NCBI GenBank assembly: GCA_035697325.1
Contig: DASSDB010000002.1
Location: forward strand, 1-64,000
Direction of reading: 5' to 3'
Source: Candidatus Saccharimonadales bacterium
GTDB lineage: Bacteria; Patescibacteriota; Saccharimonadia; Saccharimonadales; Saccharimonadaceae
DNA: 64,000 nucleotides
In this document: piece after piece, positions 44,328 to 61,954 of the stretch
Position numbering within the stretch: the first letter of the stretch is position 1
How the letters are laid out: each line of letters opens with the position of its first letter
Made by a program: the position numbers and the translations under genes
The notes under the pieces: generated by a model
Told to the model about the DNA's origin: nothing
Seen by the model: the letters and a program-made list of their open reading frames with translations, nothing else
Database searches by the model: none

Positions 44328-45257
44328 GTGCGCTGGCTTCTTTTGCCTTTCAAGGCAATCCGCCATCTGTACCGCTGGATGTGGCGGATTCCCCGCTACA
44401 TCGGCCTGTTCATGATCTTCATGGTCACAATCAGCCCCCTCTTGGCCTACATCGGCCTGGATGCTGCCTCTCGCCTCGCCCTGTCGGACGAACCCACAGT
44501 TCAGTCCTATAAGGGCACGGGTACTAAGGTAGGTCGCATCGTCTTCCTTGGTGGAGCCGGCGCGTCTCCGTCCGCACAGGCGGCCGGCATGCTGGCAATG
44601 CTTCAGGCGGAAGCAAAGAATGTTGACGTGATCGAGTATGCTTCGGGAAAGTTCTCGAGCAAAAAGATTGAGGACTTCGTGATCGCGAGAATCGCAGATG
44701 ACGAGCATGTCATCTTCGTTGGCGCATCACTCGGTGGCCTGCTCAGCTATGACATCATCAAAAAGCTGAGAGTCAGCGGCGACACGCGCAAGTTCGGTGT
44801 TGTCCTGATCGACGCACCGGCCTCGGGCAGCGATGTCATCGGAATCCCCTGGATTCTGAAGCAGTTCTCGTGGCTCCCCCTGGGCGGTATCACCAACCAG
44901 TGGTATCACCCGCCGTTCGACCGCAATGCGCCCGCCCTAATCGATCCCGACGCCAACCGACAGCAGCTCGAAGCACTCTGGCAGAGCTACGAGACCTGGG
45001 AAACCAGCTGCTGGATCAACCAGGGCGACTACGTGTTCTCTCATGATCCGATAGAGAGACTCACTGATGTCACCTGGTATTACATCCGCTCGGGTGCCGA
45101 TGATTTCGTAGGTGAAAACTCCCGGAGTCACTGGCAGAATGACCAGGGGCCGATGGAGGGTGGGATTGTTCCCGAAGGCAAGCACATAGCCTTCCTGAAC
45201 CGACCCAAGCTGTACAATGCCGAAATTAAGACCGGCATCGAACGCGTGGCGGCCTGA
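44328..45257 (+). CDS. Alpha/beta-hydrolase, membrane-anchored, foreign-looking
   Basis: A 309-residue protein starting with GTG, with AAAGGGA 7 nt upstream. An N-terminal basic segment and a membrane helix (about residues 22-44) precede an alpha/beta-hydrolase domain. The nucleophile elbow is FVGASLGGLLSY (GxSxG), and YIRSGADDFV near residue 250 is the likely acid strand; His293 (GKHIAF) is the candidate catalytic histidine. The substrate is unknown. Codons are clearly richer in G and C at the third position than in flanking rnj and udg. It has its own promoter and terminator, which fits a horizontally acquired single-gene cassette. Confidence 0.78.
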   Translation: MRWLLLPFKAIRHLYRWMWRIPRYIGLFMIFMVTISPLLAYIGLDAASRLALSDEPTVQSYKGTGTKVGRIVFLGGAGASPSAQAAGMLAMLQAEAKNVDVIEYASGKFSSKKIEDFVIARIADDEHVIFVGASLGGLLSYDIIKKLRVSGDTRKFGVVLIDAPASGSDVIGIPWILKQFSWLPLGGITNQWYHPPFDRNAPALIDPDANRQQLEALWQSYETWETSCWINQGDYVFSHDPIERLTDVTWYYIRSGADDFVGENSRSHWQNDQGPMEGGIVPEGKHIAFLNRPKLYNAEIKTGIERVAA

Positions 45258-45324: not shown

Positions 45325-45909
45325 TTAAATCTTTTTGATTATTTCTGGCACCATAACAAAATCGTCTATTAATGTTTGGCGCATACTGCCATTGTAAAGC
45401 GCCGCGGCCGGATGAAATAGAGGGATAATAACGAGCTTATCTTTGCCAAATTGGATTCTTTTAGGTTGGCCATGTATGGCGCTTATGCGCATACCGGGCA
45501 AAAAATATTCCATGCTGTGCCGCCCGAGCGTAATCACTACCTTTGGCTTAATAATCTGAAGTTGTTTTAGAAGATAAGGCCAAAACGCTTTCTTTTCCTC
45601 GGGTAAAGGGTCGCGATTATTTGGAGGGCGATATTTTACGATGTTTGTAATGTACACGTCGCTCCGTTGCATGCCAACTTCAGCAAGCATTTCATTAAGA
45701 AATTTTCCCGCGGCGCCCACAAATGGAAGCCCTTGCTCATCCTCATTTTTACCGGGTGCTTCACCAATAAATACGATTTCGGCATTGATATTTCCATCGC
45801 CCATAACAAGGTTTGTCGCCTGCTCCGCTAGTTCCGAACAAATTTTTTTATCGATAATTTCTTGTTTGATTCGGTCCAGCTGGGCTTGTTTATCGTCATC
45901 GCTGCTCAT
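45325..45909 (-). CDS. Type 4/5-like uracil-DNA glycosylase lacking the Fe-S cysteines
   Basis: A 194-residue UDG with the motif A region FIGEAPGKNEDEQGLPFVGA and the motif B HPAAALYNGS. It excises uracil from DNA. Family 4 enzymes carry four Fe-S cysteines. Here the N-terminal CxxC is gone (only Cys24 remains), and the later pair is Tyr in VKYRPP and Phe in KKAFWPYL. The protein therefore appears to have lost the cluster while keeping the catalytic motifs. It stands between two foreign-looking genes. Confidence 0.9.
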   Translation of the reverse strand: MSSDDDKQAQLDRIKQEIIDKKICSELAEQATNLVMGDGNINAEIVFIGEAPGKNEDEQGLPFVGAAGKFLNEMLAEVGMQRSDVYITNIVKYRPPNNRDPLPEEKKAFWPYLLKQLQIIKPKVVITLGRHSMEYFLPGMRISAIHGQPKRIQFGKDKLVIIPLFHPAAALYNGSMRQTLIDDFVMVPEIIKKI

Positions 45910-47196: not shown

Positions 47197-49314
47197 CTAT
47201 TCGTCGACAGCTTTAATGCTAAGGCTTAAGCGACCTCGCTCATCGATTCCAGTCAGTTTCGCCTTTACCATCTGACCTTCATGGAGAACATCAGTCACCT
47301 TTTCAACACGGTCCTTAGAGAGTTGTGAAATGTGGACCATGCCGTCGATACCCGGCATAATATTTACGAATGCGCCGAAATCTTTGATGCTTACGACCTT
47401 GCCTTCGTAGATCTTGCCCACTTCAGGTTCTTCGGTAAGGCTCTTGATCCAGGCAAGTGCTTTTTCGATATTTGTCGTATCTGAAGCAGAAACGGTAATG
47501 AGGCCATCCTCTTTAATATCGATTTCAGCACCGGTCTCAGCAGTAATTTTGTTGATGACTTCTCCGCCCTTACCAATGACAGCGCCGATTTTCTCCGGGT
47601 TAATCTTGATTTTTTCGATACGTGGGGCGTATGGACTGATTGTGGTTCGTGGTGCGGCCAACGTTGAAAGCATATGCTCTAAGATATGTGCACGACCCGG
47701 CTTTGCCTTACGGATGGCTTCACCAAGGATCTCTACCGGAAGACCGTGAACTTTCATATCCATTTGAATGGCGGTGATTCCCTGCTCGGTACCAGTGACC
47801 TTAAAGTCCATGTCGCCGGCAAAGTCTTCGGCGTCAGCGATGTCGCTTAATACATATGGTGTATCGCCATCCATCATCAGACCCATAGCGATACCGCTAA
47901 CTGGACGTTTGAGCGGAACACCTGCATCCATCAGTGCCAAAACGCTGCTACAGGTTGCTGCCATAGAGGTTGAACCATTCTGGCTCATGATTTCCGTCAC
48001 ACTACGGATTGCATACGGGAATTCTTCTTCGCTAGGGAGCATGGGAAGAACAGCACGCTCCGCCAGGTAGCCATGCCCAATTTCACGGCGACCCGGACTA
48101 CCGAGGCGACGGACTTCGCCTACGGTATACCCAGGAGCATTGTAGTGATGCATATAACGACGCTCGCCATCATTGACTTCCATCGTATCGACAAGTTGCG
48201 CATAGCTCAGCGGTGCTAAGGTAACGATGTTCATACCCTGAGTAACACCACGAGTGAAGAGGCTTGAGCCATGCGTTCGCGGCAATATACCAACCTCGCT
48301 TGAGAGCTGGCGGATTTCATCCAATTTACGGCCATCTGGGCGAGTGCCATGTTCAACGATGCCTTTTCGCACATCTTTATGAAGCGCCATAGTGAAGGCT
48401 TCATTGTATTCATCTCTGAGTTCCTGATAGTCTTCTTCGCCGAATTTTTCAATCATTGCCGCATGGAACTCGTCTCGAAGTTGGGCTACCATTTCGTTTC
48501 GCTCAGGGTATGGCTTGCGAAGGTCTTCACCGATCTTACCCTCCATCCATTCATCGACGATTTTCTGAAAATCTTCATTTGGCAAGACAAGCTCATATTC
48601 GACTGGTTGTGGAGCGATTTTTTCAACCAATTCTTTTTGTAGTGCGATTGCTGGTTGAAAAGCCTCGTAAGCCCAGGCAAGTGCATCGATAACGACGTCT
48701 TCGGTGACTTCGTTTGCTCCGGCTTCAACCATCGTAATGCCGCTCTCGATTCCCGCAACCACGAGATCAAGCTCACTTGCGGCACGTTCTTCAGGCGTTG
48801 CAAAAGCTTTGAATTCACCGTTAACGTGAGCAACACGGAGCCCAGCGACAGGCCCATCAAATGGTACGCCCGAAAGCATAATAGCGGTGCTTGCTGCGAT
48901 CATAGCAATTGCATCGGGGCGGAAATCCGGATCCATCGAGAGGACACTTGCCACCACCTGCACTTCTTGGCGATATCCCTTTGGAAAGAGCGGGCGAATC
49001 GGGCGATCGATAAGACGGCCGATAAGAATCGCTTCGTCACTAGGACGCCCCTCACGCTTGATAAAGCGACTGCCTGAGATTTTTCCAGCTGCATAAAATT
49101 TTTCTTCATAGTCGATAGAAAGCGGAAAGTAATCCATCCCTGTTTGCGTACGTCCGGCCATAGCCGTTCCAAGCACGACGGTCTCACCGTATGTAACGAG
49201 CACGCTTGCCGACGTACGAAAGCCGACACGGTTTACCTCTAGTGTAAGCGGCTTGCCGCAAAAGTCAGTACTGACAGAGATGATTTCTTTGCCATTTGGG
49301 TTGATTGTAGACAT
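47197..49314 (-). CDS. pnp: Polyribonucleotide nucleotidyltransferase (PNPase)
   Basis: Degrades RNA 3' to 5' using phosphate. The 705-residue protein has two RNase PH domains separated by a helical region, with the catalytic-core segments TCSSVLALMDAGVPLKRPVS and MDFKVTGTEQGITAIQMDMK (Asp pair). A KH domain (KIGAVIGKGGEVINKITAET) and an S1 domain (GKVVSIKDFGAFVNIMPGID) follow. AAGGAGG precedes the ATG. Together with RNase J it would form the core mRNA decay machinery here. The leader has strong hairpins. Confidence 0.97.
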   Translation of the reverse strand: MSTINPNGKEIISVSTDFCGKPLTLEVNRVGFRTSASVLVTYGETVVLGTAMAGRTQTGMDYFPLSIDYEEKFYAAGKISGSRFIKREGRPSDEAILIGRLIDRPIRPLFPKGYRQEVQVVASVLSMDPDFRPDAIAMIAASTAIMLSGVPFDGPVAGLRVAHVNGEFKAFATPEERAASELDLVVAGIESGITMVEAGANEVTEDVVIDALAWAYEAFQPAIALQKELVEKIAPQPVEYELVLPNEDFQKIVDEWMEGKIGEDLRKPYPERNEMVAQLRDEFHAAMIEKFGEEDYQELRDEYNEAFTMALHKDVRKGIVEHGTRPDGRKLDEIRQLSSEVGILPRTHGSSLFTRGVTQGMNIVTLAPLSYAQLVDTMEVNDGERRYMHHYNAPGYTVGEVRRLGSPGRREIGHGYLAERAVLPMLPSEEEFPYAIRSVTEIMSQNGSTSMAATCSSVLALMDAGVPLKRPVSGIAMGLMMDGDTPYVLSDIADAEDFAGDMDFKVTGTEQGITAIQMDMKVHGLPVEILGEAIRKAKPGRAHILEHMLSTLAAPRTTISPYAPRIEKIKINPEKIGAVIGKGGEVINKITAETGAEIDIKEDGLITVSASDTTNIEKALAWIKSLTEEPEVGKIYEGKVVSIKDFGAFVNIMPGIDGMVHISQLSKDRVEKVTDVLHEGQMVKAKLTGIDERGRLSLSIKAVDE

Positions 49315-49333
49315 TATATGTCCTCCTTATTTT

Positions 49334-49410
49334 TATTCGCCCGTTTGTTAAAGCGAATAAGTAACGGGTGGAGAAGTTCCTTGTATAGTATAGGAATTCC
49401 TCCATCCACC
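49334..49410 (-). promoter_or_regulatory. Structured pnp leader with two hairpins
   Basis: Read on the minus strand, GGTGGA...GGAATTCC (49393-49410) pairs with GGAACTTCTCCACC (49367-49380). A second hairpin, TATTCGC with GCGAATA (49334-49359), lies just before the ribosome binding site. TATAAT at 49442-49447 is the likely -10 box. In other bacteria a double-stranded pnp leader is cut by RNase III and degraded by PNPase as feedback; the same could hold here. Confidence 0.5.
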
Positions 49411-49503
49411 ACTTACTATGCCACGGTGCGATTATCTTCTCATTATATCACGAGGCTTCTCTTATTGGGTGATATCAGTCACAGTTTCTACCCCTGTTAA
49501 TAT

Positions 49504-49532
49504 TTGTGCAAATATTCAGATTATGCTATCGT
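49504..49532 (+). promoter_or_regulatory. Promoter of the whiB-like gene
   Basis: TTGTGC (49504-49509), a 17-bp spacer and TATCGT (49527-49532, preceded by TG for an extended -10). Confidence 0.65.
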
Positions 49533-49567
49533 ATTCTTACGTTGCACCCAAATGAAAAGAGGACGCA

Positions 49568-49864
49568 GTGGCACCTCAGTACAAGCGGCTACCTGGCCCC
49601 GTCTCGGACATGTGGGATTGGCAGCGCCTCGGCAACTGTCGCGACGAGGACAGCGCCACGTTCTTCCTGCCCGACGGATGCCGTGGGCTGGAGCGAGCAC
49701 GTCGAGAAGCACGTGCAAAAGCCATCTGTCAGACCTGTCCCGTACTCGAGCGGTGTCGGGAACACTCATTCACTGCTCCGGAAGCTTACGGCGTCTGGGG
49801 CGGGCTTAGTGAAGGTGAGCGGAACGCGATCATCAAAGCCAACCGATTGCGCACCACAGCCTAA
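49568..49864 (+). CDS. WhiB-family iron-sulfur transcription factor
   Basis: A 98-residue protein that matches WhiB throughout. It has Cys24 and the CxxCx5C set Cys54, Cys57, Cys63, which together bind a 4Fe-4S cluster. FFLPDG, RREARAKAICQTCPV and the G-rich turn GVWGG at residues 75-79, followed by LSEGER, complete the pattern. It starts with GTG, with GAGGAC just upstream. In Actinobacteria WhiB proteins bind the primary sigma factor and respond to redox or nitric oxide. The family is classically limited to Actinobacteria and their phages, and codons here are G+C-rich, so acquisition from an actinobacterial host or phage is likely. Confidence 0.92.
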   Translation: MAPQYKRLPGPVSDMWDWQRLGNCRDEDSATFFLPDGCRGLERARREARAKAICQTCPVLERCREHSFTAPEAYGVWGGLSEGERNAIIKANRLRTTA

Positions 49865-49872
49865 CTTAGGGT

Positions 49873-49915
49873 GAAACAACGGACCTCCTAGAACTTTGTT
49901 CTAGGAGGCTGTTTC
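49873..49915 (+). terminator. Terminator-like hairpin after the whiB-like gene
   Basis: CCTCCTAGAAC (49884-49894) pairs perfectly with GTTCTAGGAGG (49898-49908); outer GAAAC and GTTTC extend the stem. Confidence 0.82.
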
Positions 49916-49922
49916 AATCCTT

Positions 49923-50915
49923 TTACGCGAGCAATTTGAGTGCATCCAGCAAACGATCCATATCAGGCTGTCTGGCTGAAGCGACCCGAATTACACTATG
50001 GCCTTTGAAGTTGTCAAAGAGATGCGTTTCAATCTGGTATTTTTCTCTCAGTATCTTATGCAGGTCATTACTTGGCATTGTTTTATGCTTGAAAATCACG
50101 AATAGATCGAGTGATGCGAACGTTTCATACCCTAGTTTATTCACCGCGTCCGCGGTCGTCTGATGTGACTTTTTTATCGCGGCTATGGAGCTATGAAAAT
50201 CGTTGATTTTTTTGAGCGCAAAAAGCGTCCGCGCCTGAGCCTCACTATTAACATTAAAAAACGGCCGATGCCGGTTAAATTCTTTAATAAGATGCGGATC
50301 GGCAAGAACGTATCCAAAGCGACTTCCGGCCATGGCGCAAAACTTACTTAGGGTCCGCGAAACGACTAGATGACGTGGGTATACTGGTATCAAATCGCTC
50401 ACTGTTTTGCCATAAAACTCAAAATAAGCTTCGTCGGCAAATACCTTATAGCCCGCCTCCAGTATCTCGATAATTTGTTCGCGTGCTACCACATCGCCAG
50501 CAGGATTACTCGGGTTGTCAAGCATTACTACAGTGTGCGCTGGCTCGGCCCCATACTCTTTTAATACCTTCGACGAAAGCTGCGTCCTATCATGCGGAAG
50601 ACTAATGACGTTCGCCCCGATATGCGATGCATACACCGGATACTGATAATACATTGGTGGGATGACCACGACATTCAATTGATCATCAGCTAGTTTGTTA
50701 AAACGAAGATAAATATCGATAAGCTCGTCAGAGCCGTTTCCACACACGATCATCTCGGAGTCGACGCCAGTATAATCGCTAAGTACCTGTCGAGTAACCG
50801 TGCTAAACGGATCGGGGTACGCGCTTGTTACCTGTAATGGTTCGTACGTATCGTACACATGATCAGCATGAAGGTTAATTCCATACTCCAAATGGAGTGT
50901 TGTTGTTTTTTCCAA
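49923..50915 (-). CDS. Histidinol-phosphate-aminotransferase-like PLP enzyme, TTG start
   Basis: A 330-residue fold-type I aminotransferase. Key segments are VCGNGSDELIDIYLR, the PLP-binding DNPSNPAGD (Asn) and VFADEAYFEFYG (Asp, Tyr), the Schiff-base lysine in SRTLSKFCAMAGSRFGY, and the C-terminal HSVIRVASAR arginine. The longer frame upstream to 51116 crosses the promoter region and lacks homology; TTG at 50915 has a GGGGGG ribosome site 6 nt upstream. No other his genes are nearby, so it may use another amino-acid or phosphonate substrate. Confidence 0.87.
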   Translation of the reverse strand: MEKTTTLHLEYGINLHADHVYDTYEPLQVTSAYPDPFSTVTRQVLSDYTGVDSEMIVCGNGSDELIDIYLRFNKLADDQLNVVVIPPMYYQYPVYASHIGANVISLPHDRTQLSSKVLKEYGAEPAHTVVMLDNPSNPAGDVVAREQIIEILEAGYKVFADEAYFEFYGKTVSDLIPVYPRHLVVSRTLSKFCAMAGSRFGYVLADPHLIKEFNRHRPFFNVNSEAQARTLFALKKINDFHSSIAAIKKSHQTTADAVNKLGYETFASLDLFVIFKHKTMPSNDLHKILREKYQIETHLFDNFKGHSVIRVASARQPDMDRLLDALKLLA

Positions 50916-51003
50916 AAGATCCCCCCTTTTTTTAACCTTGGAGTATAATAGCATAAAGTACGCATATTGTGTGTAAAATAAAAATAACGTAGAGGGGTGG
51001 GCT

Positions 51004-57430: not shown

Positions 57431-58024
57431 ATGGAAGCATTCAATCTCATTCAGTTCTACAATTCATTCGCCACGGAAGAACAGTGCCAAAAGTTCCTAT
57501 TTGAGCAGCGGTGGTCTGAGGGTGTCATTTGCCCTAAATGCGGTGAGATTGACGTTAAGTACTATAAACTGGCGAGCGGCCGCATGAAGTGTGCAAGCTG
57601 TCGCAGCCCATTTACCGTCCGTATGGGCAGTATCTTTGAAGAAAGTCCTGTGCCGCTTCAAAAATGGTTCTTGGCGATTTATCTATGCACCAGCCTCAAA
57701 AAAGGCGTGTCTTCCATTCAGCTTAGTAAGTATATCGGCGTTACTCAAAAGACAGCTTGGTTCATGCTCCAACGCATCCGTCACGTATTTGAAAGCGGTA
57801 GTTTTGAAAAACTATCCGGCGAGGTCGAAATGGATGAAGCATATATAGGCGGTGCGGACAAAAACAAGCACCATAGCAAGAAGCTCAAAACCCTCACTGG
57901 CAAAGGTGCGCAAGGCTTTGGCAGCAAGAATAGCAAGACGCCTATTGTTGGCATGGTTGAGCGTGGCGGTAAGCTCCGAGCAGTTGCCACAAAAGACACG
58001 GGTAGAATTTTCTCAACGAGCTAA
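57431..58024 (+). pseudogene. IS1595-family transposase, C-terminus lost
   Basis: 197 residues of an ISXO2-like transposase. The N-terminal zinc ribbon has Cys34, Cys37, Cys54, Cys57, followed by the helical region with LSKYIGVTQKTAWFMLQRIR. The first catalytic Asp is Asp135 in VEMDEAYIGG. The sequence is normal to ATKDTGR near residue 191 and then ends in IFSTS. The remaining DDE acidic residues, in the last 100 or so residues of the family, are absent. The junction near 58005 leads into unrelated coding sequence in another frame, so a deletion fused two genes. Confidence 0.9.
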
Positions 58025-61617: not shown

Positions 61618-61781
61618 TCTCTGGCATGAATAACTCTACGGACGATATGTATTATTTTATCTTGAAAGTACTTGCCTATACGGATTATATGTCTTACTAT
61701 GAAACTAGGCTTTGTTTTTTAAAGCGGACAATTTGGAAGACCTAACCCATATTCTTTTGAGTATGGTATGGTCTAAAATCC

Positions 61782-61954
61782 CTGACAGATACTGATCCCG
61801 TCGTTCAGCATCTGTCAGGTCATGCGCCGAAAGGTTCATGGGGTGAAAGCCCGCTGGCGGCGGGTTCTGTGTTTTCTCGCCGTCCTAACAAGAAAGCCTG
61901 ACAGCAATTATGACGAAACGACTAGAGGCAGTCGCAGCGACTGCTATTTATTTT
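61782..61954 (+). ncRNA. Candidate structured RNA in the mobile element
   Basis: The 384-nt gap 61602-61985 has no gene but is highly structured. CTGACAGAT (61782-61790) pairs with ATCTGTCAG (61810-61818). CCCGC (61850-61854) pairs with GCGGG (61860-61864). GCAGTCG (61928-61934) pairs with CGACTGC (61938-61944), followed by a T-rich tail. CTGACAG recurs near 61900, allowing an alternative pairing with the first hairpin. The last hairpin ends about 40 nt before the ATG of the unknown-JAB gene pair, so it could be a cis-regulator or a terminated small RNA. No known family is assigned. Confidence 0.45.

Follow-up and report, generated by a model that had tools for sequence, protein, structure and literature searches.

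A WhiB3/WhiD-class gene of apparent actinobacterial origin in a genome of the Saccharimonadales

An intact whiB gene is present in the genome of a member of the Saccharimonadales, in all likelihood an epibiont of the Saccharibacteria type, and there is good support for the view that the gene came from an actinobacterium by transfer. In the explanation that we favour, with a probability of about 0.5, the gene encodes an imported WhiB3/WhiD regulator which acts on the RNA polymerase of the epibiont itself, perhaps as a cluster-free thiol switch. Wbl proteins have been called exclusive to Actinobacteria by reviews and structural papers (PMC6282962, PMC10245118). The sequence-only reading had claimed a real WhiB outside this phylum, and this was confirmed by the Pfam match, the cysteines and the GVWGG turn, in a genome of 1.03 Mb that is 99.87% complete. 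The confinement of the family to Actinobacteria and their phages is contradicted by this genome and its relatives, which concerns a criterion of distribution and not of structure. A full-text search of open-access papers found none on WhiB in Saccharibacteria, Patescibacteria or the candidate phyla radiation (CPR). The window, i.e. the whole stretch of DNA analysed here (64,000 nucleotides), is the first 64 kb of the 583-kb contig C2, and the genome is assembled in 9 contigs with 0.26% contamination.

The whiB gene and its product

The whiB coding sequence was located at 49568-49864 of the window on the forward strand; it begins with GTG and encodes 98 amino acids. The longer open reading frame that opens at 49504 belongs to another frame and is not whiB. 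The product matched the Pfam Whib profile with 77.8 bits (E 9.5e-22, cut-off 23.6), the sole Whib match of the whole genome, and the NCBIfam search gave no match and no class assignment. A plausible ribosome-binding site, AGAGGA, could be read at 49558-49563 (forward strand), 4 nt before the GTG. The GC content of the gene is 62% compared with 49% in its surroundings. Its GC3 amounts to 0.65, whereas the other open reading frames of the window average 0.46 (z 3.7), and just 3 of 145 length-matched gene pieces reach the value of whiB. The foreign codon use that had been read from the letters thus held at the level of base use.

Downstream, a perfect 12-bp hairpin (49883-49909, strand not assigned, fold z -5.0) lies between whiB and a convergent class I/II aminotransferase gene (HisC-like; 49923-50936, reverse strand, start approximate). 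Its T-run is weak. Since the terminator scan scored the opposite strand only, the hairpin is probably a bidirectional terminator common to both genes. In the pnp-whiB interval the promoter scan found no promoter above chance level. Of the promoter and terminator that whiB had been said to possess for itself, the hairpin is therefore present, though probably shared with the neighbour, and the promoter was not recovered.

The four conserved cysteines and the G[IV]W[GA]G turn of the Wbl family, both noted at the outset, were confirmed by alignment. The cysteines are Cys24 (49637-49639), Cys54 (49727-49729), Cys57 (49736-49738) and Cys63 (49754-49756), within a region spanning 49637-49756 on the forward strand, and the turn is GVWGG at residues 75-79 (49790-49804, forward strand). 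The predicted ligands of a [4Fe-4S] cluster are present. In M. tuberculosis WhiB3, sigmaA binding needs F31, F32, W76 and W15/W17, and DNA binding needs R38 and R42 (PMC10245118). The sigma-contacting residues are all kept in the window protein, W15/W17 as W16/W18, F31/F32 as F32/F33 and W76 as Trp77 of the turn. The Arg-rich DNA-binding motif has its counterpart in R39-G-L-E-R43 (49682-49696, forward strand; alignment against PMC10245118), where R38 and R42 are kept as R39 and R43 and the variable R40 is replaced by Leu. The protein also has its peculiarities: Cys38, directly before R39, stands in place of a nearly invariant Glu, FFH is changed to FFL, Asn11 to Val12, and the EPY triplet before the turn to EAY, in which Glu and Tyr are retained and the Pro is changed. 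The E71A replacement in M. tuberculosis WhiB3 left sigma binding unbroken (PMC10245118).

Matches in the PDB were M. tuberculosis WhiB3 (113 bits), WhiB1 (53) and Streptomyces WhiB (40). The AF2 model, of moderate confidence (mean pLDDT 73), was closest to the sigmaA4-bound WhiB3 structures 8cwr, 8cwt and 8cyf (TMt 0.85-0.94). In a tree that took in classes I, II and III and the WblA-like proteins, the window WhiB grouped with actinobacterial WhiB3/WhiD, the support being 98/86 when the WhiB3-like protein of the relative G047 was included and 93/93 without it. As judged from alignment and tree, the protein is a member of the WhiB3/WhiD class (class III) and not a WhiB1, WhiB2 or WblA. Like WhiB3/WhiD/WhcB it has the LPGP N-terminus, WDWQ, FF, the Arg-rich loop, the four Cys and E-x-Y-GVWGG; it differs from them in that its genome, of 1 Mb, is not actinobacterial, the partner sigma is devoid of His516, and no SufBD or IscU/NifU was found.

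Source of the gene and WhiB among relatives

The best match, with 67% identity, came from Haloechinothrix, followed by other close matches in Amycolatopsis (55-66%), Virgisporangium, Winogradskya and Corynebacterium; identity to Pseudonocardiaceae is 66-67%, and the nearest known relative of the window WhiB diverges by about 33%. In G001, a genome of the same genus, WhiB is absent and the place next to pnp is taken by a different gene, but this assembly is 89% complete and the contig ends 0.8 kb past pnp. The tree, the identity, the base composition and the lack of WhiB in G001 all point the same way and give good support to a transfer from an actinobacterium; the donor was most plausibly the host lineage of the epibiont. 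Of the origin first proposed, from the host or its phage, the actinobacterial source stood and the phage fell: phage WhiBs are at best 39-47% identical, compared with 67% in cells, and the locus had no nucleotide match to phages. A plasmid origin was rejected as well, the best identity there being 57%, in actinobacterial plasmids. In AU tests neither a position of the window gene as sister to the actinobacterial WhiB3 class (p 0.34) nor one as sister to G047 (p 0.20) was rejected. Nesting inside the actinobacterial class is favoured, although the tests leave room for either position and for more than one donor family. Actinophage WhiB-like proteins (e.g. WhiBTM4, PHROG 472) likewise represent a WhiB in an entity dependent on Actinobacteria (PMC6282962), but they are mostly of other classes, and the window gene lies in the chromosome, where no neighbouring phage genes were noted.

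The gene is not a lone case. Among 394 genomes of the same family 42 carry WhiB, as do 40 of 101 near relatives, and in a phylum sample it was present in about 18 of 37 genomes of the window's class compared with none of about 343 others (Fisher p 6e-21), these counts being taken from the kinship order of the results table with approximate denominators. The Saccharibacteria record L068 also has a WhiB, which, together with the small genome and the occurrence of WhiB in one CPR-like class, points to a Saccharibacteria-type organism. WhiB1-, WhiB2-, WhiB3- and WblA-like members (classes I, II and III and WblA-like) all occur in the class, e.g. a WhiB3-like protein in G047, WhiB1-like proteins in G005, G037 and G049, WblA-like proteins in G220 and G488, as well as many WhiB2-like ones.

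Two sites recur. The rpoD-polA interval holds whiB in 30 of the 42 WhiB-bearing family genomes (in a few of them the contig breaks off inside it) and also in three other families of the order, and a whiB divergent from an adjacent pnp was seen in the window (class III) and in G005 and G037 (class I). A single clade was rejected both for the rpoD-polA copies (AU p 2e-4) and for the three pnp-slot copies (AU p 8e-5); therefore different Wbl classes entered the same sites, by selection, insertion hotspots or both. Past the pnp leader no stretch homologous to G005 or G037 was found, which would have suggested that an older WhiB1 had been replaced. These comparisons argue for several separate acquisitions of WhiB within the window's group. 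The other WhiBs of the class share with the window gene a common lineage, the lack of SufBD where tested and, in G005 and G037, the pnp-adjacent slot; they differ in belonging to other Wbl classes, in lying mostly in the rpoD-polA slot and, in some cases, in long N-terminal extensions. Wbl proteins of several Wbl classes are thus frequent in a single class of another phylum, which gained them repeatedly and retained them at favoured positions, often between rpoD and polA. The WhiBs of epibionts could serve to mark actinobacterial hosts, past or present.

The N-terminal extensions measure 150-450 amino acids in many CPR WhiBs (L210, L224, L223, L244, L247, L262 and others), and in the four extensions scanned no Pfam match other than Whib exceeded the cut-off. 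L212 (G024) and L215 (G047) have additional sigma-70 paralogs next to the primary rpoD, in the stretch from whiB to polA.

Sigma factor, cluster supply and mode of action

Region 4 of the organism's own sigma factor reads KLRKHKDA, compared with KLRHPSRS in M. tuberculosis sigmaA. Since the alignment has no gap, H516 is replaced by Lys and P517 by His, with R515 kept. Replacement of His516 by Ala in M. tuberculosis sigmaA abolishes WhiB3 binding (PMC10245118). A WhiB-binding region in the own sigma factor, as considered in the sequence-only reading, is thus mostly missing, Arg515 being the part that is there. The KLRK pattern could be observed in nearly all of the relatives' primary sigma factors that were read, whether WhiB was present or absent. 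In place of the common KLRHP, primary sigma factors across the class have KLRKH or KLRKN/KLRKS; the N and S forms were seen just in genomes that have no WhiB, which are few and probably related. The beta flap tip LRAIFGEKA is kept in the organism's RpoB. Among at least three matches besides the primary sigma, two were read as candidates for a second sigma with the docking His and both were rejected because neither is a full sigma factor, G000:C4 being a winged-helix protein with a sigma4-like N-terminus and G000:C2 an unrelated HTH protein.

Family searches of the window genome found neither SufBD nor IscU/NifU; the search covered these families, and their absence is no proof that clusters are absent. 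Among the 101 relatives SufBD occurs in 6 and WhiB in 40 with no overlap, which is not significant (Fisher p 0.08). A family-4 uracil-DNA glycosylase near pnp (45325-45909, reverse strand) has lost three of its four [4Fe-4S] ligand cysteines, and three of the four are likewise lost in G001, G005 and G037. This loss, as far as it can be read from the sequences, supports a low use of Fe-S clusters in the lineage. Oxidised apo-WhiB3 of M. tuberculosis binds DNA strongly in vitro (PMC6282962).

According to our preferred explanation, an actinobacterial whiB would have been inserted in a variable interval directly beside pnp, and its product would work inside the epibiont on the RNA polymerase of the epibiont. 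It would dock via Trp16/Trp18, Phe32/Phe33 and Trp77 on region 4 of sigma and on the beta flap tip, promoter DNA would be contacted via Arg39/Arg43, and a small promoter set may respond to redox or NO conditions at the host surface. Since no SufBD or IscU/NifU was found, its main mode of action may be that of a thiol/disulfide switch of the cysteines, free of any cluster. Action on the own polymerase is favoured because the residues predicted to contact sigma and DNA are kept, no secretion signal is visible and the frequent place of whiB is by rpoD; the presence of the beta flap tip and a model near sigma-bound WhiB3 would favour it too. The rpoD-polA location in the majority of the WhiB-bearing family genomes is in line with a function that involves the sigma of the same cell. 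A whiB beside the primary sigma gene is suggestive of a functional link and no proof of it, and against it the interval may be a mere insertion hotspot, and the window copy lies elsewhere. As the copies are in part related by descent, a simple binomial figure for this placement cannot be read as a probability. The lack of His516/Pro517 in the sigma factor and the failure to find SufBD or IscU/NifU work against action on the own polymerase. If these WhiBs are functional, their sigma partner is one in which the canonical contact is missing, and the Fe-S scaffold families searched for are not there to serve them; the long-debated cluster-free function of Wbl proteins would then become testable.

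The same two deficits speak for a passenger, i.e. a host gene without stable function that a genome prone to uptake has received at one of its variable sites. The gene content of the rpsO-pnp interval differs in each relative, G001 has no whiB there, and the foreign GC is just partly ameliorated. However, the frame, the ribosome-binding site and the class-defining residues are intact at a divergence of about 33%, part of which may predate the transfer and belong to the donor, and the repeated acquisition and retention of WhiB in the family at preferred sites point to selection. We regard a passenger as doubtful.

An action in the host is unlikely. Here the WhiB would be made in the epibiont, moved into the actinobacterial host, loaded there by SUF, and would act on host sigmaA as the mycobacteriophage TM4 WhiB does. 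The protein keeps all the canonical sigmaA docking residues, and actinobacterial sigmaA has KLRHPSR, with the His516 that the producer's sigma lacks; the scaffold families SufBD and IscU/NifU were not found in the producer, and among the sampled genomes of the phylum WhiB occurs only in the window's class. There is also the precedent of a parasite, since the WhiB of phage TM4 down-regulates host whiB2 (PMC6282962). Phage WhiBs, however, act within the cell, no N-terminal hydrophobic signal is visible in the window protein and no delivery route is known; most family WhiBs adjoin the cell's own rpoD, and some have long N-terminal extensions. A wider version, in which Saccharibacteria-type epibionts repeatedly capture host WhiBs and send them into the host, where a SUF-made cluster and the His of host sigmaA would let them rewire host transcription, appears slightly less likely again. 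Host action, if true, would be a first instance of an epibiont directing a transcription factor at its bacterial host.

Quite improbable is a WhiB that the whole class had from its ancestor by vertical descent and that most lineages then lost. The rpoD-polA position, which recurs in 30 of the 42 family genomes and in three other families of the order, speaks for a high age of some WhiBs, and a shared origin of the window gene with G047 was not rejected. The deep, vertically inherited CPR clade that had been named as the outcome contrary to transfer was, however, rejected for all CPR WhiBs taken together (AU p 1e-44), as were the clades of the rpoD-polA and pnp-slot copies, and the foreign composition of the window gene, its identity and the tree contradict such a descent.

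The pnp locus and the assembly

The divergent neighbour of whiB is pnp (PNPase; 47197-49314, reverse strand), 91% identical to its counterpart in G001, and whiB itself lies 49.6 kb into the contig, inside a pnp-rpsO-truB block common to relatives. Although a short gene with high GC and actinobacterial identity might suggest a contaminant or a chimeric contig from an actinobacterium, this is very unlikely because of the length of the contig, the completeness and low contamination of the genome, the conserved block, in which pnp and rpsO-truB flank whiB from either side within a few kb, and the intact upstream pnp leader, homologous to that of the relatives; a chimera would need two junctions in less than 1 kb.

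The pnp leader (49318-49430, reverse strand) contains a conserved long stem (z -4.75), in which 14 of 26 pairs had changes on both sides that keep the pairing across six genomes. It had no Rfam match at the gathering threshold and is possibly an autoregulatory PNPase leader. Elsewhere in the window, a 309-amino-acid alpha/beta-hydrolase-like reading frame (44328-45257, forward strand) with a weak Pfam match has the maximal GC3 of the window, 0.72, and is a candidate for foreign origin. An IS1595-type transposase reading frame was observed at 57431-58024 (forward strand), apparently shortened at the C-terminal end of its DDE domain, and a LOOT RNA (Rfam RF03000) was detected at 61739-61852 on the forward strand with 70.9 bits.
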